From the NCBI RefSeq assembly GCF_005403045.1, contig NZ_BJCL01000011.1, positions 62,001 to 126,000 on the forward strand: 64,000 nucleotides of DNA, read 5' to 3'. Below are positions 7,169 to 28,046 of the stretch, piece after piece. The notes under the pieces are model-generated. The model made no database searches. It saw nothing but the letters and a program-made list of their open reading frames with translations, and had not been told where the DNA came from. How positions within the stretch are numbered: position 1 is the first letter of the stretch; the number at the start of each line of letters is the position of its first letter. Source of the stretch: Pseudaquabacterium pictum. Lineage in GTDB: Bacteria; Pseudomonadota; Gammaproteobacteria; Burkholderiales; Burkholderiaceae_C. The position numbers and the translations under genes were made by a program.

Positions 7169-7945
7169 TCATTCGTTCTGGCGCCGCTTGCGCGGTCGGC
7201 CGGCCAGCACGCGGTCGTACAGCCAGCCGGGCAACAAACGCAGCAGGCCCGCCACCACGCCCATCTGCCAGGGGATGAAGCGCGTGCGCACGCCGGCGCC
7301 GATGTGGCTGTAGGCGCGGTCGGCAAACGCCTCGGGCGCCATCAGGAACGGCATGCGGTAGCGGTTGCGCTGGGTCAGCGGCGTGTCGATGTAGCCCGGC
7401 GCGATGGTGACCACCTGCACGCCGTGCGGCCGGCATTCGCCGCGCAGGCTCTCGCAGTAGGCGAACACCGCCGCCTTGCTGGCGCAATAGGCGCCGTGGC
7501 CGGGCAGGCCGCGGATGCCGGCCACGCTGGCGATGCCCACCAGCTTGCCGCTGCCGCGCTGGCACATGGCCGCGACGAAGGGCTGGAAAGTGGCCGCCAT
7601 GCCCAGGTTGTTGGTCTCGAAGGTGGCGCGCATCACGTCCAGGTCGGCGAAGTCGGCGGTGTCCATGCCGATGCTGATGCCGGCATTGGCGATCACCACA
7701 TCGGGCAGGCCGGCCTCGGCGATGCAGCGCCGTCCGGCGGCGGTGATGGCGTCGACATCCCGCACGTCGGCGGCCAGCACCAGCAGGTCGGCCGCCGGGA
7801 TGCCTTGCGCGTCGGCCCATTGCTGCACCGCGTCGGCCCGGCGGGCCACCAGCGCCAGGCGCCAGCCGGCGCGGTGGTAGCGCAGGGCCAGCGCCTGGCC
7901 GATGCCGCTGGACGCGCCGGTGATGCAGACCAGCGGCCGGGTCAT
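7169..7945 (-). CDS. SDR family NAD(P)-dependent oxidoreductase
   Basis: A 258-aa classical short-chain dehydrogenase/reductase. Visible are the cofactor motif TGASSGIG (9-16), the NAG motif IANAGIS, the catalytic Ser in GIASVAG and YCASK with Tyr and Lys. The Arg-rich end of beta-2 (VARRAD) favours NADPH. The C-terminus is basic and follows a hydrophobic GVVAGLLRLLPGWLYDRVL segment, suggesting membrane association, as in several lipid or ketone reductases. Its start overlaps the stop of lptC (ATGA), so it is translated in the kdsD-kdsC-lptC operon, in the place where lptA is normally found. The substrate is unknown. Confidence 0.9.
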   Translation of the reverse strand: MTRPLVCITGASSGIGQALALRYHRAGWRLALVARRADAVQQWADAQGIPAADLLVLAADVRDVDAITAAGRRCIAEAGLPDVVIANAGISIGMDTADFADLDVMRATFETNNLGMAATFQPFVAAMCQRGSGKLVGIASVAGIRGLPGHGAYCASKAAVFAYCESLRGECRPHGVQVVTIAPGYIDTPLTQRNRYRMPFLMAPEAFADRAYSHIGAGVRTRFIPWQMGVVAGLLRLLPGWLYDRVLAGRPRKRRQNE

Positions 7946-8688
7946 GGCTGGCGCCCGCTGGCCGGCGTCGCCGGGGGGCGTGCCCGGCCGCCGGGGGCCA
8001 CGGTGGCGCGCACCGGGCCGTTCAAGGTGAGCTGACGCTGCAGGTTGTCGTAGTCCAGACCGCCGGCGCGGGCCAGGGTGCCGCCGTGCCGCACCTGCAC
8101 CGGCAGGTGCGAGCGCAGCCGCTCGAAGCGCAGGAAGGCGTGCAGGAACTCGCCTTGCACCTCCAGTGTCTCGCCGCCGGGCAGCTGGCTGACCACCTGG
8201 GCGCCGCCCAGCAGCTGGATCTCGCTGCCGTCGCCGTTGGCCAGCGCATGGCGGGCGGTGGCGTTGGTGCTGCGGCCGTCGGGGCCGGTGGCCAGGATGC
8301 GCACGCCGTCGATCTCGAGCCGGTCCGTGGCGGGAAAGTGGCGCAGCGTGTCACCGGCGATGCGCAGCGACACCTGGCCGTCGGGCGCGAAGCGGGTGAT
8401 GGCGAAGCCGGTCATGGTGTAGTCGGGCGTCTGGCGGGGCGGGGCGTCGGGCCGGGCGCCGGGCGCCTGCGGCGTGTTGCGCACCAGCCACCAGGTGCCC
8501 GCGGCCAGCAGGGCCATCAGCATCAGCGGCAGGTAGGACGACAGCGCCTGCTGCAGCCGGTAGCGCCAGGGCAGCGCCGGCCGTGCCGGGCGGCCAGCGG
8601 CCGGCGGCTCGGTGCCGGCCAGCGTCGGCAGGCCCAGCTGCACCGACACCTCGGGCAGATCGGGCAGGTGCAGCTCGGGGCGGTTCAT
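7942..8688 (-). CDS. lptC: LPS export ABC transporter periplasmic protein LptC
   Basis: LptC is the bitopic inner-membrane protein that receives LPS from the LptBFG transporter and passes it to LptA. This 248-aa protein has an N-terminal cytoplasmic/linker region, a membrane anchor near residues 53-70 (LMALLAAGTWWLV), and a beta-jellyroll region starting at PDYTMTGFAITRFAPDGQ. The repeated pattern of short beta strands with GD and LEVQGEFLHAF is typical. At about 180-200 aa the family is usually shorter; the excess is an N-terminal Pro-rich region. Order after kdsC supports the call. lptA and lptB do not follow. Confidence 0.88.
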   Translation of the reverse strand: MNRPELHLPDLPEVSVQLGLPTLAGTEPPAAGRPARPALPWRYRLQQALSSYLPLMLMALLAAGTWWLVRNTPQAPGARPDAPPRQTPDYTMTGFAITRFAPDGQVSLRIAGDTLRHFPATDRLEIDGVRILATGPDGRSTNATARHALANGDGSEIQLLGGAQVVSQLPGGETLEVQGEFLHAFLRFERLRSHLPVQVRHGGTLARAGGLDYDNLQRQLTLNGPVRATVAPGGRARPPATPASGRQP

Positions 8689-8754
8689 GCCAGCCCCTCG
8701 TCCGACGCGTGCGCCGGCCGATCCGTCCCGGGGATCGCCGGTGCGGCGGCCAGG

Positions 8755-9324
8755 TCAGCGCCCATCCAGCGTGCCCTGGTGGGCGGCCAGCAGTTCACCG
8801 TAGCGGCCGCTGGCGGCCAGCAGCAGATCGCAGAACTCGCGCGCGGCACCTTCGCCGCCGCGGGCGGCGGTGACATGGTGGGCCAGCGCCCGCGCCTCGG
8901 CATGGCCATTGGCCGGTGCGCAGGCGAAGCCGGCACGGGCCAGCAGCGGCAGGTCGGGCCAGTCGTCGCCGATCACCGCCACCTGCGGCCAGGCCAGGCC
9001 GCGCGCAGCCAGCAGGCCCTCGGCCACGGCCAGCTTGTCGGCCACGCCGTAGTGGGCATCGGCCAGGCCGAGGTCGGCCATGCGCCGGCGCACCGCCGGC
9101 GAATCCCGGCCGGTGATGACGATGGGCAGGATGCCGACCCGGGCCAGCAGCTTCAGGCCATGGCCGTCGAGCACATGGAAGGCCTTGAACACCTCGCCGG
9201 CCTCGCCGATGTACAGCCGGCCGTCGGTGAGCACGCCGTCGACATCAAAGATCGCCGCACGCATGCCCAGGCTGCCGCCCTGGGCGCGCAGCAGCAACTC
9301 GGGCGGGAACTGGAGCGCGCTCAA
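8755..9324 (-). CDS. kdsC: 3-deoxy-D-manno-octulosonate 8-phosphate phosphatase KdsC
   Basis: KdsC hydrolyses Kdo-8-phosphate to Kdo, the third step of Kdo synthesis for the LPS inner core. The 189-aa HAD phosphatase is of the capless C0 type. Motif I is FDVDGVLTDG, motif II ITGRDS and motif IV IGDDWPDLPLL, with a conserved Lys in GVADKL. The ATGA overlap with kdsD upstream and lptC downstream places it in the usual Kdo/LPS-transport operon. The second Asp of motif I (DVD) is present, so it should be active. Confidence 0.93.
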   Translation of the reverse strand: MSALQFPPELLLRAQGGSLGMRAAIFDVDGVLTDGRLYIGEAGEVFKAFHVLDGHGLKLLARVGILPIVITGRDSPAVRRRMADLGLADAHYGVADKLAVAEGLLAARGLAWPQVAVIGDDWPDLPLLARAGFACAPANGHAEARALAHHVTAARGGEGAAREFCDLLLAASGRYGELLAAHQGTLDGR

Positions 9325-10322
9325 ACCACTTTCGCCCGCATCAGGTCGCCGATGGTCAGCAGGCCGACGAGCCGCTGATCGGCATCCAGCACCGCCACCG
9401 AGGTGATGCGGTGCTGCTCCATCAGCTCGGCGCCCTCGACGGCCAGCGCATCGGCGGCCACGGTCTTGGGGCGCGGGTGCAGCACCGCGCCGGCGGTCAG
9501 CGTGCGCAGATCGGCGCCGCGTTCCACCTGGCGGCGCAGGTCGCCATCGGTGAAGATGCCCTGCAGCCGACCGTCGCCATCGACCACCAGCGCCGCGCCC
9601 AGGCCCTTGGCCGACATGGTGCGCATCATGTCGATCACCGGGGTGGTGGCCTGCACCAGCGGCAGCGCATCGCCCTGCACCATCAGGTCGGACACCAGCA
9701 CCAGCAGCTTGCGGCCCAGCGCGCCACCGGGGTGCGAGCGGGCGAAGTCCTCGGCCTTGAAGCCGCGGGCATCGAGCAGGGCCACGGCCAGGGCATCGCC
9801 CAGGGCCATCTGCGCGGTGGTGCTGGCGGTGGGCGCCAGGTTGAGCGGGCAGGCTTCCTGGTCGACAGCGCAGCTCAGTACCTGGTCAGCATGGCGGGCC
9901 AGGGTGGAATCGGGCTTGCCGGTCATCGCCACCAGGGTGGTGCCCAGGCGGCGCAGGGCGGGCAGCACGGCGGCCAGCTCGTCGCTTTCGCCGCTGTTCG
10001 AGATGGCCAGCACCACATCACCGGGCTGCACCATGCCCAGGTCACCGTGGCTGGCCTCGGCCGGGTGCACGAAGAACGCGGGCGTGCCGGTGGAGGCCAG
10101 GGTGGCGGCGATCTTGCGGCCCACATGGCCGCTCTTGCCCATGCCCATCACGATGACGCGGCCGCGGCAGGCCAGCATGGCCGACACCGCGGCAGCAAAG
10201 CCATCGCCCTGGCGCGCGGCCAGGCCCAGCAGGGCGCGGGCCTCGATCTCGAAGGTCTGCGCCGCCAATTGCAGGGCGCGCTGCGCCTGGGCGCTGGCAG
10301 AGGGGGCGGGTGGGAGGCTCAC
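9321..10322 (-). CDS. kdsD: Arabinose-5-phosphate isomerase KdsD/KpsF
   Basis: Converts ribulose-5-phosphate to arabinose-5-phosphate, the first committed step toward Kdo. The 333-aa protein has an N-terminal SIS domain (GMGKSGHVGRKIAATLASTGTP; HPAEASHGDLGMV; ISNSGESDEL) and a C-terminal pair of CBS domains ending in LTIGDLMRAKVV. Length matches E. coli KdsD (328 aa). It heads the kdsD-kdsC-lptC operon and is divergent from the antiporter gene, with 88 bases between them that must hold both promoters. Confidence 0.94.
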   Translation of the reverse strand: MSLPPAPSASAQAQRALQLAAQTFEIEARALLGLAARQGDGFAAAVSAMLACRGRVIVMGMGKSGHVGRKIAATLASTGTPAFFVHPAEASHGDLGMVQPGDVVLAISNSGESDELAAVLPALRRLGTTLVAMTGKPDSTLARHADQVLSCAVDQEACPLNLAPTASTTAQMALGDALAVALLDARGFKAEDFARSHPGGALGRKLLVLVSDLMVQGDALPLVQATTPVIDMMRTMSAKGLGAALVVDGDGRLQGIFTDGDLRRQVERGADLRTLTAGAVLHPRPKTVAADALAVEGAELMEQHRITSVAVLDADQRLVGLLTIGDLMRAKVV

Positions 10323-10410
10323 GTGGATCCGGTGGGCCAGCCGCCGTGGCAGGGGGCTGGCTTACGATGAAGGACTCTGAAATCGATTCTAGGCGCCCAC
10401 CCCGGACGGC

Positions 10411-12408
10411 ATGGCCACCACCCTCGAACTCGTCTTGCTCTATCTCGTGGCTGCAGTGCTGGGCGTGGTGGGCTGCCGGCTGCTGAAGCTGCCGCCGATG
10501 CTGGGCTACCTGGCCGTGGGTGTGCTGATCGGCCCCAATGCGCTGGCGCTGGCCAAGGACACGGCGGGCGTGAAGTACCTGGCCGAGTTCGGCGTGGTCT
10601 TCCTGATGTTCGTGATCGGGCTGGAGTTCAACCTGCCCAAGCTGCGCAGCATGCGCACCCTGGTGTTCGGGCTGGGGCTCTCCCAGGTGGTGCTGACGGT
10701 GCTGGGCGCGGTGGCCGGCAATGCCCTGCTGGCGCTGGGCTACCACTGGCTGGGCGGGCGCTGGCAACTGGGCTGGCAGGGCGCCATCGTGCTGGGCTCG
10801 GCGATGGCGATGTCGTCGACCGCCATCGTCGTCAAGCTGATGGCCGAGCGGCTGGAGATGGAGAGCGAACACGGCCGCCGGGTGATGGGCGTGCTGCTGT
10901 TCCAGGACCTGGCGGTGGTGCCGCTGCTGGTGCTGATCCCCGCGCTGGGCAGCAGCGGCGAGGACATGGTCCGCGCCCTGGGCCTGGCCATGCTGAAGGC
11001 CACGGTGCTGCTGGCCCTGCTGCTGGTGGGCGGCCAGCGGGTGATGCGCTGGTGGCTGACCCTGGTGGCGCGGCGCAAGAGCGAAGAGCTCTTCGTGCTG
11101 AACCTGCTGCTGATCACCCTGGGCCTGGCCTGGCTGACCGAGCATGCCGGCCTGAGCCTGGCGCTGGGCGCCTTCGTCGCCGGCATGCTGGTGGCCGAGA
11201 CCGAGTTCAAGCACCAGGTGGAGACCGACATCCGGCCCTTCCACGATGTGCTGCTGGGCCTGTTCTTCATCACCATCGGCATGAAGCTGGACTGGCGGCC
11301 GGTGATCGACCAGTGGGGCCTGGTGCTGCTGCTGAGCGTGGTGCCGCTGCTGGTCAAGGGCGCGCTGGTAGCGGCGCTGGCCTGGCTGTTCCGCGCCTCG
11401 CCGGGCGTGGCCATCCGCACCGGCCTGTACCTGGCGCAGGCCGGCGAGTTCGGCTTCGTGCTGCTGACCCTGGGCGCCGAGCGCGGCCTGGTGCAGCCGC
11501 AGTGGGTCAGCCCGGTGCTGGCCTGCATGGTGCTGTCGATGCTGGCCACGCCGTTCATCGTGATGCACAGCAACTGGGTGGTGATGAAGCTGTCGTCCAG
11601 CGAGTGGCTGATGCAGTCGGTGCAGCTGACCACCATCGCCAAGAAGTCGATCAAGACCGAGGCCCACGTGATCATCGCCGGCTACGGCCGCAGCGGGCAG
11701 AACCTGGCGCGGCTGCTGACGCAGGAAGCCATCCCCTACATGGCGCTGGACCTGGACCCCGACCGGGTGCGCCAGGCCGCCGCTGCCGGCCAGAGCGTGG
11801 TGTTCGGCGATGCCGCCCGGCTGCCCAGCCTGATGGCCGCCGGCCTGGCGCGGGCCAGCGCGGTGGTGGTGAGCTACCACGACACGCCGTCGGCGCTGAA
11901 GATCCTGCAGCTGGTGCGTGAACATGCGCCCAAGGTGCCGGTGATCGTGCGCACCATCGACGACACCGACCTGGAACGCCTGCGCGATGCCGGCGCCACC
12001 GAGGTGGTGCCCGAGGCCATCGAGGGCAGCCTGATGCTGGCCGCCCAGGCCCTGGCCCTGGTGGGCGTGCCGATGCAGCGGGTGATCCGCATCACCCGCG
12101 ACGCGCGCGACAAGCGCTACCACCTGCTGCGCGGCTACTTCCACGGCGCCGACGACGACACCGCCGACGACCGCCACCAGGCCCGGCTGAACACCGTGCC
12201 GCTGCCGGTGGCCGCGGCCTGCGTGGGCCAGCCGCTGGGCGACCAGGCGCTGCATGCCATCGGCGTGCAGGTGGTCAGCGTGCGCCAGGCCAGCGGCCGG
12301 GTGGTGGACGCCAGCGACGGCCTGGTGCTGGCCGCCGGTGACACACTGGTGCTGTCCGGCCTGCCCGAGCCGCTGTCGCTGGCCGAAGCCAAGCTGCTGA
12401 AAGGATGA
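10411..12408 (+). CDS. kefB: Monovalent cation:proton antiporter-2 (KefB/KefC-type)
   Basis: A 665-aa CPA2 antiporter with about twelve membrane helices (to about residue 390) followed by a cytoplasmic RCK/TrkA-N domain ([18 protein letters not shown], Rossmann, about residue 422) and a TrkA-C-like domain at the end. It most likely exchanges K+ or Na+ for H+, as KefB/KefC do under electrophile or pH stress. No kefF/kefG-type quinone reductase partner is adjacent. The position opposite kdsD and before apt is common in Burkholderiales. Its stop TGA overlaps a possible apt ATG, so the two genes are probably co-transcribed. Confidence 0.9.
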
Positions 12409-12410
12409 CC

Positions 12411-12977
12411 ATGACCACGACATCTGCCAGCCCGCTGGCCCTGCACACCGACTACATCCGTGACCACATCCGCACCGTGCCCGACTGGCCGGCGCCGGGC
12501 GTGCAGTTCCGCGACATCACGCCGCTGCTGCAGAACCCCAAGGTCTTCCGGGTGCTGATCGACGAGTTCGTGCACCGCTACTTCGACGTGCGGCCGCAGG
12601 CCATCGCCGGGCTGGATGCGCGCGGCTTCATCATCGGATCGGTGCTGGCCTACGAACTCAACATCGGCTTCGTGCCGATCCGCAAGAAGGGCAAGCTGCC
12701 CTTCACCACCGTGGCCGAAAGCTACGAGCTGGAGTACGGCAGCGCCACGGTGGAGTTGCACACCGACGCGGTGCAGGCGGGCGACCGGGTGGTGCTGATC
12801 GACGACCTGATCGCCACCGGCGGCACCATGATGGCCGGCAAGCGCCTGCTGGAGAAGCTGGGCGCCACGGTGATCGAGGGCGCGGCCATCGTCGACCTGC
12901 CCGAGCTCGGCGGCTCGGCCCGGCTGCGTGAATCAGGGCTGCCGCTGTTCACGCTGGTGGACTTCGCCGGGCATTGA
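12411..12977 (+). CDS. apt: Adenine phosphoribosyltransferase
   Basis: Salvages adenine with PRPP to AMP. The 188-aa protein has the APT N-terminal region [17 protein letters not shown], the flexible-loop region KKGKLPFTT and the PRPP-binding motif [15 protein letters not shown] prefer the ATG at 12411 because AAAGGA sits five bases upstream. An ATG at 12405, overlapping the antiporter stop, would add two residues. The last 45 bases overlap the 3' end of the opposite-strand CPBP protease gene. Confidence 0.94.
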
Positions 12978-13766
12978 CCGGCCGGCCGCTGCGCCCAGGC
13001 GCAGGCCACGCTGGCGGCGCACCACGGCCACTGCGCAGGCGATGGCCAGCGGGTAGACCGCGATGGCCACCAGGTTGGGATCGCTGCCGGTGGCCCGCGG
13101 CAGGAACAGCGATGTGTCCCAGAAGCCGTGCAGGAACATCGGCAGCAGCAAGGTGCCCGACAACCGCCGCGCGGCGTACAGCAGCGAGCCGAACAGGAAG
13201 GTCATCACCAGCTGGCCCAGCATGGCCAGCACCGGCTCGCCGAACAGCGCGTTGGGCACATGCAGGGCCGAGAACAGCAGCGTGGACATCAGCCAGGCGT
13301 GGATTTCGGTGTGGCGCGCACGAAGGCCCACCAGCAGGGCGCCGCGGGTGATCATCTCCTCGCCAAAGCCGACGCCGATGCCGCCGAGCACGCACCACAG
13401 CACCAGCGCGGGTGTGGCACTCTCGCGGCGCATCAGCAGGAAGGAACTGGCGGCGATGCCGAACATCAACGCCGGGCCCAGCCAGGCCCAGGCCGGGCCG
13501 CTGCGCTGGTGATCGAACAGCGTGATGCGCCACCAGCCGAACACGCTGAGCATCACCACCAGGAAGGCACTGCCGAACAGCGTGGGCAGGGCGTAGTGCA
13601 GCCGCGCGCTGTCGGCAGTCTGGCCGATCGTCATGTAGTCGACGCGGTTGACGACCCATGTGACGTAGAACAGGACCAGGTAGCCGGCGTACAGCACGAG
13701 CGCGGCACCGACCGAGGGCTGCACACGCGGCGATCGCACGGCCTGGGGCGATGGCGTCTCGGTCAT
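12933..13766 (-). CDS. CPBP-family intramembrane metalloprotease
   Basis: A 277-aa polytopic protein of the CPBP (CAAX protease and bacteriocin-processing; Rce1-like) family. The three motifs are present: GEEMITRG with Glu136-Glu137 and Arg141, FSALH with His169, and HGFWD with His213. It should therefore be an active membrane glutamic/metallo-protease. About seven to eight membrane segments are visible. Bacterial members process prenylated or bacteriocin-like substrates or act in immunity, but no bacteriocin gene is near. The 13-residue hydrophilic C-terminal tail is encoded within the 3' end of apt on the other strand. It sits 19 bases after mnmE and may be its distal operon member. Confidence 0.88.
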
Positions 13767-13785
13767 CGCCGGTCCAATCTCGTCG

Positions 13786-15210
13786 TCACTTGCCGATGCA
13801 GAAGCCGGCGAAGATCTCGCCCAGCAGGTCATCGGCGGTGAAGGTGCCAGTGATCTCGCTGAGCGCGTCATGCGCCAGCCGCAGTTCCTCGGCAAACAGG
13901 TCCAGCGCGGCATCACCCGCTGCGGCCTGCTCACGGGCGGCCTGCAGGTGGGTGCCGCAGCGCTGCAGCGCCAGCACATGGCGCTTGCGGGCGATGTAGA
14001 CGCCTTCGGTCGCCGCCTGCCAGCCGGCGCGCTGCAGCAGCGCCTGGCGCAGCGCATCCAGCCCATCACCGGTGCGGGCCGACAGTCCGAGGGCGCCGGC
14101 CGGCAGGTCGGGCGACAAGCCGGGCGGCAGGCTGTCGGTCTTGTTGTGCACCTGCAGGATGCGGCTGGGTGCCACGCTGGCCAGGCGTGCAGCAATCGTT
14201 GCATCGGCCGCCTGGTAGGCCGGATCGGCCAGGCGGGTGATGTCGTGCAGGAAGATCACCGCATCGGCCTCGGCAATCGCCGCCCAGCTGCGGCCGATGC
14301 CGATGCGTTCCACCTCGTCGCTGGCCTGGTGTTCATCGCGCAGGCCGGCGGTGTCGGTGATGTGCAGCGGCACGCCCTCGATCTGGATGGTCTGGCTGAC
14401 CTTGTCGCGGGTGGTGCCGGGGATGGCGGTGACGATGGCCAGCTCGGCACCGGCCAGGGCATTGAGCAGGCTGCTCTTGCCGACGTTGGGCTGGCCGGCC
14501 AGCACCACCTGCAGGCCTTCGTTCAGCAGCGCGCCCTGGCGGGCGCGGGCCACCACCGCGGCCAGGCCGGTGTCGATGGCGGCCAGCTGGCCCATGGCAT
14601 CGGCCTGCTGCAGGAAATCGATCTCTTCCTCGGGGAAATCCAGCGTGGCCTCCACCAGCATGCGCAGCCGCACGATGCGCTGGCGCAGCGCTTCGATCTC
14701 CTGCGAGAACGCGCCGCTGAGCGAGCGGCCGGCCGAGCGGGCTGCGGCCTCGGTGCTGGCGGCGATCAGGTCGGCCACCGCCTCGGCCTGGGCCAGGTCG
14801 AGCTTGTCGTTGAGGAAGGCGCGCTGGGTGAATTCACCCGGCTGGGCCAGGCGCAGTCGCGGTGCGGTGGCGGCGCCGGTGGCCGGATCGGCCTCTGCGG
14901 CCGCCTGCAGGCAGCGCGCCAGCAGCAGCTGCAGCACCACCGGACCGCCATGGGCCTGCAGTTCCAGCACGTCTTCGCCGGTGTAGCTGTGCGGCGCGGG
15001 AAACCACAGCGCCAGGCCCTGGTCGATGGCTTGGCCCTCAGCGTCGCGGAAGGGCCCGTACACCGCCTGCCGCGGCGGCAGCGTGCGGCCGCACAGGACC
15101 TGCGCCAGCGCGGCCAGGCCATGGCCGGAGACACGCACGATGCCCACCGCACCCCGCCCCGGGGCGGTGGCGATGGCGGCGATCGGGTCTGTCAGGTGGG
15201 TGGGCTGCAC
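13786..15210 (-). CDS. mnmE: tRNA uridine-5-carboxymethylaminomethyl modification GTPase MnmE
   Basis: With MnmG it makes cmnm5U at the wobble position of several tRNAs. The N-terminal formyl-THF-binding domain begins [23 protein letters not shown]. The inserted G domain has [12 protein letters not shown] (G1), GTTRDK (G2), [10 protein letters not shown] (G3) and NKTD (G4). The protein ends in the catalytic FCIGK. I chose the GTG at 15210, giving 474 aa, close to the family length. An ATG at 15336 would add 42 residues of Arg/Pro/His-rich sequence with no family match. It follows yidC in the conserved origin-side operon. Confidence 0.93.
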
Positions 15211-21276: not shown

Positions 21277-23886
<2,610 letters not shown>

Positions 23887-24101
23887 CTCTGTCGCGACAT
23901 AGGGCGCCAAGTTATCTGCGATCCACCACGCCTTGGTGCGACTGCCAGGCACTGCTTGCTGCGACTTGCGGAAAACGCAGTGAGCGACTTTGCAGATGCG
24001 CTGACGACCTCATCAAGGCTGTCGAACTGCCTTGTGACACCACCACCGATCAGTCATTGTTGGGGCGCGCGCCAGAGCGCCTGACTTGGCGTCCTACGGC
24101 C

Positions 24102-26084
24102 ATGAAATTGACTCGCGCTTACTACGCCAGCTCTGTTTCGGGTTTCCTGGCTTGCGACGAAGACCGCGTGCTCGGCGCGCTGACCGCAGCGAGCGAATTC
24201 GCTGTCGATGTTCTTCAGCGCAACGCTTGGCAGCAAGAGATTAGGCTGCTGCGCGGGCTGCTGTCGCCGCTCGGTCCGGGTGAAGTTCTTTTTGAGTTTG
24301 TGGTGCCGCGCTTGGGCAAGCGCATCGACACTGTGCTGCTGCTTCGTGGCATGGTGTTCGTGCTTGAGTTCAAGACGGGTGGGACAGACTTCCAACGAGC
24401 AGACATCGAGCAGACCTGGGATTACGCGCTGGACCTGAAGAACTTCCACGCGACCAGCCATCACCGGGTCATCTGGCCGGTGCTGGTGATCACCGGCGCC
24501 AAAGGTCGGCTGCAGCGCGGTCAGTTGCGATCGGCTGATCGGGTGGCCGATCCCACGCTGGTCTCTGCAGACCGGCTCGGCGAATTCCTCCAGCAGGTGC
24601 TGGGCGTCGCGGCCGAGGAGGCAATGGACGATGCTGCTTGGCAGAGCGGACGCTATCTGCCCACGCCAACGATCATCGAGGCCGCCACGAGCCTGTACCG
24701 ACGGCACTCTGTCAAGGAGATTGCAAGGCACGATGCAGGTGCCAAAAACCTGGCCCGCACCTCGGAGAAGGTGGCGTCCCTCATCCGTCATGCGCGTGAC
24801 GTGTCGTGCAAGTCGATCTGCTTCGTGACGGGTGTCCCTGGGGCCGGGAAGACACTCGTGGGTTTGGACGTCGCTACGCGCTTCCAGGATGCCGCCAGTG
24901 ATCTGCACAGCGTGTATCTGTCGGGCAATGGACCGCTCGTTGCCATCCTGACCGAGGCACTGGCGCGAGACCGTGTTTTGCAGGAGCGGCGTGAGGGCCG
25001 GAAGGTCACGAAGGGTATTGCCCGGCAAGCAGTCAAGGCCTTCATTCAGGCTGTGCACCACTTTCGGGATGAGGGTCTCAAGGACCCCTCGCAGCCGCCC
25101 GAGCACGTCACCATCTTCGATGAGGCGCAGCGCGCTTGGAACCTGGCCAAGACTGCTGACTTCATGCAGCGCAAGAAAGGCCGAGTGGGTTTCCGACAGT
25201 CTGAGCCGGACTTCCTCATCTCGTGTCTGGACCGCCATCGCGACTGGGCCGTGATCGTGTGTCTTGTGGGTGGCGGGCAGGAGATCAACACAGGTGAGGC
25301 AGGCATCGGCGAGTGGCTAGAGGTGGTGCGCACCACCTACCCAGAATGGCACGTCCACCTTTCCTCCCAACTGATGGGCTCCGAGTACGCTGCTGGCGAC
25401 ACCATCGCTGCGATGGCAGGCAACCCGAGGGTGCACATCGACGATGACTTGCACCTGGGTGTCTCGATGCGGTCGTTCCGTGCGGAACATGTATCGGACT
25501 TCGTCAAGCGGGTACTCGATCTGGAGGTCGACGCCGCAGCGTCGCTTTACCGAGAATTCGCTGCGAACTTCCCGCTGGTGATGACGAGGTCCGTCGATAG
25601 CGCGCGGCGCTGGCTGCGCCGCCAGGCGCGCGGGAGTGAGCGCTACGGCCTCGTCGTGTCATCGCAGGCCTTGCGGCTGAAGCCCCATGCCATCGACGTT
25701 CGTACGCCCGTCGACCCGGTCAATTGGTTCCTCAACGATCGCGAGGATGTCCGCTCGTCGTACTACCTCGAAGACGTGGCGACCGAGTTCCAAGTGCAAG
25801 GCCTGGAACTCGACTGGGTGGGCGTTGTCTGGGATGCCGATCTTCGCCACCAGCCGGCCGGTTGGCAGCACCACGCGTTCGTCGGCGATCGCTGGCAGCA
25901 CATCCACAAGCCGGATCGCCGTCTGTACCTGAAGAACGCCTATCGTGTGTTGCTGACCCGTGCGCGGCAAGGGATGGTGATCGTTGTGCCACATGGCGAG
26001 CCCGAAGACCCAACACGCACGCCAGCGTTCTACGACGGGACTTACAGCTACCTCCAATCCATCGGAATTCGCGAAGTCACGTGA
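24102..26084 (+). CDS. PD-(D/E)XK nuclease-DUF2075 helicase fusion protein
   Basis: A 660-aa protein with two parts. Residues 60-130 look like a PD-(D/E)XK nuclease: RIDTVLLLRGMVFVLEFK supplies Asp76 and Glu89-x-Lys91, followed by a conserved YALDLKNFH. Residues 235-630 are a DUF2075/Schlafen-type P-loop helicase domain: Walker A GVPGAGKT (244-251), Walker B TIFDEAQ (337-343), LVGGGQEI (388-395), FQVQGLELDWVGVVW (563-577) and motif VI YRVLLTRARQGM (614-625). It probably cleaves or remodels nucleic acid with ATP hydrolysis. I chose ATG 24102; a TTG at 24057 would add 15 unconserved residues. G+C is visibly lower than in gyrB, suggesting transfer. The HNH gene follows two bases after its stop. 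A defence role is inference. Confidence 0.85.
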   Translation: MKLTRAYYASSVSGFLACDEDRVLGALTAASEFAVDVLQRNAWQQEIRLLRGLLSPLGPGEVLFEFVVPRLGKRIDTVLLLRGMVFVLEFKTGGTDFQRADIEQTWDYALDLKNFHATSHHRVIWPVLVITGAKGRLQRGQLRSADRVADPTLVSADRLGEFLQQVLGVAAEEAMDDAAWQSGRYLPTPTIIEAATSLYRRHSVKEIARHDAGAKNLARTSEKVASLIRHARDVSCKSICFVTGVPGAGKTLVGLDVATRFQDAASDLHSVYLSGNGPLVAILTEALARDRVLQERREGRKVTKGIARQAVKAFIQAVHHFRDEGLKDPSQPPEHVTIFDEAQRAWNLAKTADFMQRKKGRVGFRQSEPDFLISCLDRHRDWAVIVCLVGGGQEINTGEAGIGEWLEVVRTTYPEWHVHLSSQLMGSEYAAGDTIAAMAGNPRVHIDDDLHLGVSMRSFRAEHVSDFVKRVLDLEVDAAASLYREFAANFPLVMTRSVDSARRWLRRQARGSERYGLVVSSQALRLKPHAIDVRTPVDPVNWFLNDREDVRSSYYLEDVATEFQVQGLELDWVGVVWDADLRHQPAGWQHHAFVGDRWQHIHKPDRRLYLKNAYRVLLTRARQGMVIVVPHGEPEDPTRTPAFYDGTYSYLQSIGIREVT

Positions 26085-26086
26085 AC

Positions 26087-27088
26087 ATGTCCAAGGCCCG
26101 GAGCGACGCGCTGCGGCACTACGAGGCTTGTTTCGACAGCCTCGTGATCAACAGCACCAACGGTCGGGCGAGCCCGCACAAGATCTGCATGCTGCTGGCC
26201 GTGCTGGACCTGGCACTCGCGGGTGGCTTGCGAGAGAACCGCATTGCCTACGAGCCGCCGCTGTTGGAGCGCTACCGCCGGTACTTCGACGCCGTCCGAC
26301 GTGAAGGCGATCACCCAAACGCCTACTTTCCGTTTTTCCACCTCAAGGGGCGATTGCGCAACAGGCAGTCAAGCTTCTGGCATCTGGTGCCGCGAGTGGG
26401 GTGCGAGGTGGTGGTGGCTGCAATGGACACCGCACGCAGCGACAGCGCGATCGTCCAACGCATCGACCACGTGCGTCTGGACGATGCGCTGTTCGACTTG
26501 CTGCAGGACGCCGACGCGACCATCGCGCTATCGGATGCGATCGCACGACGGTGGTTTCAGCGGGGACTGCAGGAACTGAACCGCATGGCGCAACGCAGCC
26601 GCGCGGTCAGCCGCTACGAACGCACTTTGCGAGAGCCACAAGCAGTCCTTGCAGAGCCCCGACCACCGGCCTATGTGCGCAGCGCTGCCTTTCGCAGCGT
26701 GGTGATCGAGTTCTATGACTACCGCTGCGCTGCAACCGGTCACCGTGTGTTGCTCCAAGGGGGTGAGGCGATGGTTGAGGCGGCTCACATTCATCCGTTC
26801 TCCATCTCTGGTGACGACGATCCACGCAACGGCATTGCGCTCACACCGGACATGCACTGGGCGATGGACCGCAACCTGATCGCGCCCGGTCCGGATTTGT
26901 GCTGGCACGTGAGCCCAGCCCTCGACGACCGTGTGCCTGACCTGCATCGGCTCGTCGCGCTGCATCACCGGCGCATGCTGCTCCCCGAACGCCAGGCGCA
27001 GTGGCCGAAAGAAAGCGTGCTGGCCTGGCGCCTTCAGCGTCTGCGCGATCCGGGCTGGCGCCCTCCCGTTGTCGACGCAGGCGACTGA
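26087..27088 (+). CDS. HNH endonuclease (predicted restriction-type)
   Basis: A 333-aa protein of the COG3440-like class of predicted restriction endonucleases. The C-terminal HNH_2-type domain has CAATGHRVLLQ, the catalytic EAAHIHPFS (His234), NGIAL (Asn248) and HWAMDRNLI (His257). The N-terminal 110 residues contain PHKICMLLAVLDLA and YFPFFHLKGRLR-FWHLVP. This pattern is shared by the specificity or modification-sensing domains of such enzymes, possibly related to sulfur-binding domains of type IV restriction enzymes (unproven). The start is ATG 26087; a GTG at 26081 overlaps the upstream stop. Tight coupling implies the two products work together. G+C is lower than in core genes. Confidence 0.85.
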   Translation: MSKARSDALRHYEACFDSLVINSTNGRASPHKICMLLAVLDLALAGGLRENRIAYEPPLLERYRRYFDAVRREGDHPNAYFPFFHLKGRLRNRQSSFWHLVPRVGCEVVVAAMDTARSDSAIVQRIDHVRLDDALFDLLQDADATIALSDAIARRWFQRGLQELNRMAQRSRAVSRYERTLREPQAVLAEPRPPAYVRSAAFRSVVIEFYDYRCAATGHRVLLQGGEAMVEAAHIHPFSISGDDDPRNGIALTPDMHWAMDRNLIAPGPDLCWHVSPALDDRVPDLHRLVALHHRRMLLPERQAQWPKESVLAWRLQRLRDPGWRPPVVDAGD

Positions 27089-27296: not shown

Positions 27297-28046
27297 ATGA
27301 AGGTGCAGTTTTCTCTCCTGACGTTGGCTGCAATGACCGCCGGCGTCACCGGACCCGCGCTGGCCGCCACGCCGCTGGCAGCCTCGATGAGCTTCGAGGC
27401 CACAGTGGAGATCGCTGGTGAGGTCCATGTCGACAAAACGAGTGATGCCTGGGGATCCGCGTTGAACCCGCTTTCTGTCGGTGGCATGGCGTTCAGCACC
27501 GATGCGAAGAGCAATTCGGCCACCGCCCAGGGCTACGGCAATGCCGTCTGGGCCAGCGCCGATGCCGGTGTCGTCAGCTTCGAGGGGTACGGCTGGGAAT
27601 GGAGCGTCGAGATCGACTCGCCGCGGATCATGACCACGTTGAACACCGCCCTGCCAGATTGGAGCTACACGTTCATCGCCAATCCCGGCGACGCACAGTT
27701 CCGCGTTCACTACAACGTGGTCGGAACCGGCAGCACCTTCGGCTTGCAAGGCTGGGAGATTGTGGTGACGGGTGGTCCGGAGCCCGAGCAGAGCTCGGTC
27801 ATCCGCGATGTCTTCGATCCGACCACGAGCGGTACCTTCGAGGCAGGCTTGACCCCGGGCAACGAGTACACCGTGTCGTTGATGAACAACGCCAACCTCA
27901 GCGCTGAGACCGGCTTCAACAGGAGCGCGCAGATGAACGGCACCTTCCGTTGGGAGATCTCGCCGATCCCCGAGCCCAGCACCTATGCGCTGATGGCGCT
28001 GGGTCTGCTCGCGGTGGGAGCAGCGGCGCGGCGGCGTCGCTGCTGA
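27297..28046 (+). CDS. PEP-CTERM sorting domain protein
   Basis: A 249-aa exported protein. It has a Sec signal peptide (MKVQFSLLTLAAMTAGVTGPALA) and ends with the PEP-CTERM signal PEPSTYALMALGLLAVGAA followed by a basic RRRR-C tail. This is the substrate tag for exosortase/EpsH, which sorts proteins in exopolysaccharide-producing bacteria. The body is beta-rich and low in charged residues, without a known domain, so its role (matrix or surface protein) is unknown. AAGGA precedes the start. No exosortase gene is in the window. Confidence 0.88.
   Translation: MKVQFSLLTLAAMTAGVTGPALAATPLAASMSFEATVEIAGEVHVDKTSDAWGSALNPLSVGGMAFSTDAKSNSATAQGYGNAVWASADAGVVSFEGYGWEWSVEIDSPRIMTTLNTALPDWSYTFIANPGDAQFRVHYNVVGTGSTFGLQGWEIVVTGGPEPEQSSVIRDVFDPTTSGTFEAGLTPGNEYTVSLMNNANLSAETGFNRSAQMNGTFRWEISPIPEPSTYALMALGLLAVGAAARRRRC

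Follow-up and report, generated by a model that had tools for sequence, protein, structure and literature searches.

A predicted nuclease-helicase gene and a predicted phosphorothioate-dependent restriction gene in a variable defence slot at the gyrB 3' end of Pseudaquabacterium pictum

The locus and its two genes

Directly downstream of dnaA-dnaN-gyrB in Pseudaquabacterium pictum (Burkholderiales) lie two complete genes on the forward strand, 2 nucleotides (nt) apart, which we call A and B and which encode a Schlafen-group-3 helicase with a PD-(D/E)XK-like N-terminal region and a protein with a sulfur-binding domain (SBD) followed by an HNH domain, respectively (Table 1). We analysed them within a window of 64,000 nt (NCBI RefSeq assembly GCF_005403045.1, contig NZ_BJCL01000011.1, positions 62,001 to 126,000), and an earlier note made from the letters of this window had their coordinates, strand, lengths and spacing exactly right. 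That note also described their G+C content as lower than that of the flanks, which is only partly right: both lie below the window mean (62.4% in A and 64.7% in B, compared to 71.0%) but near the value of gyrB, 65.8%. The third-codon G+C of A and B (0.75-0.76, compared to 0.90-0.94 for dnaA, dnaN, and gyrB) is the clearer foreign sign and marks both genes as acquired.

Gene A matches the PADLOC model PDC-S41 over nearly its full length (residues 4-659 on positions 2-653 of 657, E 5.4e-278). This model represents a putative single-gene defence candidate, and according to the available text of PMC12988326 the PDC entries derive from "guilt by embedding", with validation pending for most. We aligned A with homologues down to 34% identity (11 rows in total), and found that Asp76, Glu89, Lys91, and Gln104 are invariant in all rows; the same is true of Walker A (G-x-PGAGKT) and Walker B (FDEAQR). 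In motif VI (RVLLTRAR) there is no variation at R615, V616, L617, T619, R620, or R622 and hardly any at L618 and A621. The catalytic residues and helicase motifs listed in the earlier note are therefore conserved, and its DUF2075-type helicase is recovered as the Pfam family SLFN-g3_helicase (PF09848, 265.7 bits against a cut-off of 24, E 9.3e-79), which we take to be the former DUF2075. PD-(D/E)XK nucleases carry the signature D-(x)n-ExK with a downstream Q or K, and this signature is present and conserved in A at the level of the motif; because no Pfam nuclease profile matched the N-terminus, the nuclease reading of A rests on this motif. Relatives of A occur in four plasmid records and one phage record.

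In gene B, the N-terminal part aligns with the sulfur-binding domain SBDHga1 (PDB 8h0l; phmmer against the PDB, E 5e-22), the nearest solved relative found, with which it has an HK and PxxH pattern in common; with a six-row profile of B and its homologues the match rises to E 2.7e-30. The HNH_2 family of Pfam is matched further on (35.7 bits against a cut-off of 21), and the core residues His234, His236, Asn248, His257, and Asp261 are invariant in 6/6 rows, in keeping with the intact HNH core reported earlier. Weak HNH matches of the profile to the 5-methylcytosine-specific McrA (6ghc, E 8.9e-4) and, restricted to the HNH part of B, to PDB entry 5zmm, "Uncharacterized protein McrA" (E 0.035), which we take to be ScoMcrA, were also obtained; no Pfam match to an SRA domain was found in B, and a structure model of B was too poor for use (pLDDT 62). 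We rejected the plain COG3440/McrA reading of B, as its N-terminal half is a sulfur-binding domain: the earlier description as a COG3440-like HNH enzyme was correct for the HNH part and overlooked this domain.

Counterparts of the ScoMcrA binding pocket were assigned by motif, without structure superposition, as H31 (H116), K32 (R117), F81 (Y164), P82 (P165), and H85 (A168), and H31, K32, and P82 are invariant in 6/6 rows. In ScoMcrA, H116 and P165 are the most conserved pocket residues, R117 is replaced by Lys in most homologues, the H116, R117, and P165 positions are together described as most conserved or charge-critical, and Y164 and A168 are less conserved and variable (available text of PMC6224610). 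Purified SBD-HNH enzymes, EcoWI for example, cut phosphorothioate (PT)-modified DNA on their own, and fewer than 3.6% of predicted SBD-HNH enzymes adjoin dnd clusters (PMC7461809, in the part available). Judged by its architecture and pocket, B is most likely a PT-dependent restriction enzyme, and we regard its dependence on PT as probable. The earlier characterisation of the locus as two nucleases, one with an ATPase, of a type suited to defence agrees with the assignment of A to PDC-S41 and with the PT-dependent restriction enzyme architecture of B.

Table 1. Coordinates of the features discussed, as positions in the window
Feature	Position	Strand	Description and basis
Gene A, 660 amino acids	24102..26084	+	PD-(D/E)XK-like N-terminal region (D76, E89, K91, Q104) and Schlafen-group-3 helicase (residues 237-630); PADLOC PDC-S41
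Gene A, D76-to-K91 codons	24327..24374	+	PD-(D/E)XK-like catalytic motif; invariant in 11/11 rows; motif reading
Gene B, 333 amino acids	26087..27088	+	Sulfur-binding domain (residues 9-156) and HNH_2 (residues 214-266); PT-dependent-restriction-enzyme-like
Gene B, H31-K32 codons	26177..26182	+	Counterpart of ScoMcrA H116-R117; 8h0l alignment, 6/6 rows; numbering by motif
Gene B, F81-P82 codons	26327..26332	+	Counterpart of ScoMcrA Y164-P165; 8h0l alignment; numbering by motif
Gene B, HNH core, H234-to-D261 codons	26786..26869	+	Pfam and 6-row alignment
Degenerate Tn7-like transposon end-like sequence	23890..23944	+	Directly after gyrB stop codon; flank comparison
gyrB, 3' end = insertion point (context, outside the module)	21310..23886	+	Open reading frame

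A promoter scan found none, and four terminator-like sites were present where 2.1 were expected. The next gene downstream of B (27297-28046) encodes a PEP-CTERM protein, and beyond it, from about 28.5 kb, an apparent RND-type efflux operon lies on the opposite strand according to our reading of the open reading frames (ORFs).

Neighbourhoods and trees of A and B

To evaluate the earlier proposal that A and B form one system, we examined how often the two genes adjoin each other. A survey detected A in 14/149 relatives and 10/369 genomes of the class, with the P. pictum genome in both counts, and the neighbourhoods of all 22 other A genomes were read, some of them on short contigs; 63 B loci were collected with two peptide patterns in a non-exhaustive search. 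B adjoins A in only 2 of the 22 A genomes (G063 and G082) and A adjoins B in 5 of the 63 B loci (L056, which is G063; L066, which is G082; L060, L061, and L093). A and B therefore mostly live apart and do not co-occur as a rule, and on these counts we rejected an obligate A-B system; the single system of the earlier note, as it was worded, does not hold, and A plus B as one system is weakly supported. The remaining B loci have a HIT gene (22 loci) or a NOV_C gene (4 loci; the one typed, in L059, is PDC-S36) next to B, or none of A, HIT, and NOV_C (32 loci, several of which end at contig ends).

The strongest alternative to independent action is nevertheless one cooperating system, in which B would recognise PT or another mark and break the DNA, A would load at the break, unwind and degrade, so that few cuts lead to full destruction, and the upstream partner of B would be exchangeable (HIT, PDC-S36-type, or PDC-S41). 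The architecture of the pairs is consistent with this: all six are on the same strand and tightly spaced (2 nt in the window and less than 100 nt in the five others), both gene orders occur (A comes first in the window, G063, and G082, and B comes first in two Ramlibacter and one Caenimonas), and in L066/G082 A is located between HIT and B. The A tree (24 rows) requires four changes of the paired state and the B tree (40 rows) three, although these counts do not distinguish gains from losses, and either may have occurred. Co-presence points the same way, as among 90 family genomes A is found in nine, B in six, and both in three (p 0.012, or 0.062 without the window), with B counted from strong matches only (weak HNH-only matches in six family genomes were dropped) and with a p-value that ignores relatedness and the shared gyrB slot.

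This slot may confound the pairing in general, since the distance downstream of gyrB is at most about 2.5 kb for five of the six pairs and about 7.6 kb for the sixth (G082), and co-location near gyrB alone could explain why A and B meet; among all B loci, 8/63 are linked to gyrB. The trees also speak against a joint machine. The A of the window is sister to that of G020 (L036), a genome without B (support 100/97), and the B of the window groups as sister with the L055 gene, which stands next to a NOV_C gene (support 100/99). In 20 of the 22 other A genomes, moreover, A does not have B as a neighbour. The earlier note had named repeated pairing at loci that are otherwise unrelated as support for a system; this is seen only in part, as several state changes and both gene orders, but chiefly near gyrB. 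We consider the cooperating system unlikely and independent action of A and B more likely; we read the pair as having been assembled repeatedly at the same place, and the two may cooperate.

Other partners of these genes were apparent in the same neighbourhoods. The HIT gene overlaps or closely precedes the SBD-HNH gene wherever it was found beside it (L057, L058, L062, L067, L068, L070-L074, L076, L078-L080, L083-L088, L092, and L094), which makes the two a candidate two-gene PT-restriction operon, and the HIT gene typed in L073 matches the Thoeris HIT protein ThsC in PADLOC (E 3e-13). On two Variovorax plasmids (L187 5459-6954 and L188 5459-6957) a B homologue is preceded by a different gene of 169 amino acids. 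In G020 (L036 7600-11031), the gene that follows gyrB-A encodes a Fic protein of SoFic type, which is likewise a defence family of PADLOC.

The gyrB 3' slot and Tn7-like transposons

In 60 family genomes we extracted the region that follows gyrB, and 40 of these genomes also provided a control site, the region downstream of an mnmE-like gene. Proteins without a counterpart in another genome of the set made up 90/112 on the gyrB side (57 loci) and 33/78 on the control side (40 loci), and 291 PADLOC families were matched at E 1e-10 on the gyrB side compared to 42 on the control side, where many families overlap on one protein and the two sets differ in size. In Pfam, HsdM was found in 4/112 gyrB-side proteins, and McrBC, PvuII, cytosine methylases, and HipA were among the first 25 families. 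The gyrB 3' slot is therefore variable and richer in defence models than the control site. Several genomes have a second, partial gyrB 3' end, located either downstream of the intact gene or apart from it (L064 6893-6985; L090 6957-7046; L180, in G077; L186, in G049; and G011:C63); in Malikia (L064) the insert between the two gyrB-end copies apparently codes for a helix-turn-helix protein, by our own reading.

The flanks of gyrB suggest how genes may arrive there. In 14/62 flanks, taken from 60 loci of which two contributed a further partial gyrB end, TGTAG is present no more than 20 nt past the gyrB stop codon, compared to 0/40 control flanks, and short repeats often follow it. Tn7-like gene sets were found on the downstream side of gyrB in three relatives. 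In G037 (L234) the set lies 7-14 kb downstream, behind a D12 methyltransferase and a DndB-like gene that is below the cut-off, and comprises TnsA-like, TnsB, TnsC/TniB, TniQ, and second TniQ-like proteins; the TnsA-like call is based on BLAST kinship to G113 and not on Pfam, and the second TniQ-like protein has no Pfam TniQ match and is BLAST kin of the G113 and G116 TniQ proteins. The G037 flank, beginning 3 nt past the gyrB stop, reads TGTGTGTAGGCGTAGGGCGCC, and no distal transposon end was found in L234. Using the G037 TnsB as query we recovered eight places in 7/149 genomes, of which two more are downstream of gyrB and the other five are not near it. In G113 (L235) TnsA, TnsB, TnsC, and TniQ lie 10 kb downstream of gyrB and the cargo is a type I restriction system with an Orf5/HEC-06-like protein, and in G116 (L236 and L237) TnsA (Pfam), TnsB and TnsC (BLAST), and a TniQ-like protein below the cut-off lie 23 kb downstream, with DISARM DrmA, DrmB, DrmD, DrmMI, and DrmMII as cargo; in both genomes, as in G037, TGTAGG is found within 15 nt of the gyrB stop. 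These sets make gyrB a possible Tn7-like attachment site. In the literature searched, which left out preprints and most subscription papers, gyrB was not named as a Tn7-like attachment site or as a Burkholderiales defence hotspot; the word is absent from the main text of PMC8649781 and PMC10293859 as far as these were available, and in one further text gyrB appears only as a tree marker.

In the window, the flank after the gyrB stop reads TGTCGCGACATAGGGCGCCAAG... and resembles a degenerate transposon end. This end-like sequence was the best of 5114 window stretches when compared with the flanks of five relatives, and 0/2000 mononucleotide shuffles scored as high; because it was noticed by eye before this test, and because a search of the P. 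pictum genome with one relative's flank gave the window site 73% identity over 45 nt at E 1.1, which is not significant by itself, it provides support, not proof, for a transposon end. No convincing second end or inverted copy of the gyrB-side flank was found in the window, nor a second copy of the end pattern as written from the window's own sequence, and the P. pictum genome had no TnsB relative at E 1e-40.

Interpretation and relation to known systems

We favour, with a probability of roughly 60%, the reading that A and B are two separately mobile genes directed against foreign DNA that stand as a transcription-ready pair in a defence slot at the gyrB 3' end, with B cutting PT-DNA and A acting alone. 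The sulfur-binding domain of B would dock on PT in incoming DNA and its HNH domain would cut nearby, while A, a helicase of RecD/SLFN type with its own PD-(D/E)XK-like nuclease, would act by itself on invading DNA or its replication intermediates. In relatives the slot appears to be used by Tn7-like transposons with defence cargo, and A and B are probably what remains of such cargo or were inserted next to such a transposon. The host genome bears on the target of B. No DndC/SspD-type PT-writing gene was found in it, and its only two PAPS-reductase-family matches are adjacent, beside a sulfite-reductase-like ORF, and look to us like a CysH/CysD-like pair. We consequently rejected Dnd- or Ssp-type PT self-protection in the host, whose own DNA should then not be a target of B, and B would attack PT-marked incoming DNA.

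Several observations weigh against this reading. The repeated pairing of A and B speaks against pure independence, and DEAH RNA helicases are among the best structure matches of A. B has F81 and H85 in place of Y164 and A168 of ScoMcrA, has no CxxC pairs such as those of EcoWI, and reaches 66.6 bits on the NCBIfam model NF045808 (PT-DNA_restrict), whose cut-off is 180, and for this last reason we filed it by its SBD-HNH architecture and not under that model. A DndC-type gene is nearby in 10/63 B loci: the B homologue of L087 (45% identity) adjoins dndB- and dndC-type genes, and nine further, distant homologues lie near DndC-type genes, which is awkward for a simple enzyme that cuts any PT. The control site too holds some restriction genes and one PDC-S36. 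With regard to transposition, a TniQ search of 19 chosen genomes, many in short contigs, found 19 places in 11 genomes and only that of G037 is near gyrB; no TniQ was found in the P. pictum genome, and no tns genes in the 89 A/B loci searched, on which ground we rejected an association of tns genes with the loci of A or B. A TGTAG or GGGCGCC start is absent from the other gyrB-linked A-B flanks (L039, L060, L061, and L093), and the caveats on the window's end-like sequence given above count here as well.

Regarding the dnd-type genes, the order in L087 (Polynucleobacter, 7615-14084) is HIT, B-like, DndB-type, DndC-type, and one more gene, and the other SBD-HNH relatives near dndB/dndC-type genes are L096, L097, L099, L102, L105, L107, L108, L111, and L114. 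Such neighbours are odd for an enzyme expected to avoid PT-marked self.

An extension of the cooperating system considered above would make the gyrB 3' end a homing site for Tn7-like defence transposons in Burkholderiales, where an SBD-HNH enzyme gains exchangeable partners (HIT, a PDC-S36-type nuclease, or the PDC-S41 nuclease-helicase) to give a cut-then-degrade system against PT-marked mobile DNA. We regard this as doubtful, but if it is true that PT enzymes use helper nucleases, it would explain how single cuts destroy an invader.

A second alternative is that A is an RNA-directed abortive effector similar to animal Schlafens, triggered by infection and cleaving tRNA or other RNA. Its helicase belongs to the Schlafen group 3 family of Pfam, and when the AlphaFold model of A (pLDDT 76.5) was compared with the PDB using Foldseek, human SLFN11 came first, though weakly (E 4.4e-6, 12% identity, TM 0.24), with the RNA helicases DHX36 and Prp16 among the next; in addition, Schlafen-type RNases occur beside BREX genes (PMC12839542, in the part available). 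RecD and HsdR were also within the first ten matches, all of which are weak (TM below 0.35) and decide little, so that the fold search leaves DNA and RNA as substrate undecided. In Schlafen proteins the RNase core stands upstream of the helicase. In A this region has the PD-(D/E)XK-like motif instead, and no Pfam match to the Schlafen RNase core was listed up to E 10, a search in which HMMER filters drop weak ones. We consider an RNA effector improbable, and hold with modest confidence that A is an ATP-driven nuclease-helicase acting on invading DNA rather than RNA.

We judge it similarly improbable that B works as a general modification-dependent or unspecific HNH nuclease, whether because strict PT-dependence has been lost or because a different mark on the backbone or on a base is read. 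The changed pocket residues, the score below the NCBIfam cut-off, and the distant relatives near dnd-type genes would fit this possibility, as would the report that some SBD-HNH enzymes show little PT-dependence (available text of PMC7461809). It is countered by the retention of H31, K32, and P82, by the HK and PxxH pattern held in common with SBDHga1, and by the natural variability of the Y164 and A168 positions noted above, and we therefore retain PT as the mark that B most likely reads. Lastly, it is very unlikely that A and B are the inert remains of an old island that have persisted by chance beside an essential gene, for despite the degenerate end-like sequence, the lack of transposition genes, and one related A copy apparently split between frames, both frames are full length with intact catalytic residues, and homologues 46-67% identical keep the same residues. 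The split copy is the Ramlibacter alkalitolerans A homologue (L060 9016-10978), possibly the result of a frameshift or a sequencing error.

With this locus PDC-S41 gains a concrete intact member with a nameable neighbour, and a PT-dependent restriction enzyme whose partner gene can be swapped is predicted. The locus also suggests that defence genes of Burkholderiales may be worth seeking at gyrB, given the three relatives whose Tn7-like sets accompany type I restriction, DISARM, or methyltransferase and DndB-like cargo. Compared to known systems, A resembles PDC-S41 in full but has an SBD-HNH neighbour here, where PADLOC models a single-gene candidate. B resembles the SBD-HNH enzymes SprMcrA, EcoWI, Ksp11411I, and Bsp305I in its SBD-then-HNH order, its H-K and P pocket, and its single polypeptide (PMC7461809, in the part available), as well as in the lack of a PT-writer match in the host; it differs in its NCBIfam score, the missing CxxC pairs, and SBDHga1 as the solved domain matched, and its family differs in having A, HIT, or PDC-S36-type genes next door. 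With ScoMcrA (SBD-SRA-HNH) it has the SBD and HNH domains in common, but not the SRA domain. Ssp (SspABCD-SspE) and Dnd systems protect PT-marked self; they have PT-related defence in common with our locus, and some distant B relatives lie near dnd-type genes, but no PT-writer was found here and B would attack PT-marked foreign DNA. The sets of G037, G113, and G116, with TnsA-, TnsB-, TnsC-, and TniQ-type genes and defence-type cargo downstream of a conserved gene, resemble the Tn7-like transposons with defence cargo of Benler et al. 2021 (available text of PMC8649781), from which the window differs in having only an end-like sequence and no tns genes.

The host of the window and Helicobacter belong to different phyla. 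The nearest precedent for the slot is nonetheless the Helicobacter PabI pair, restriction genes directly downstream of gyrB, although the genes are different and no transposon is described in the available text (PMC4615327). The earlier note did not recognise the exact pair as a named system, and neither the pair nor "PDC-S41" is named in the literature searched; as PADLOC has no match for such a system either, we rejected a named two-gene system of exactly A and B, while A by itself does have a family name. Both A and B are new members of previously described or modelled families.

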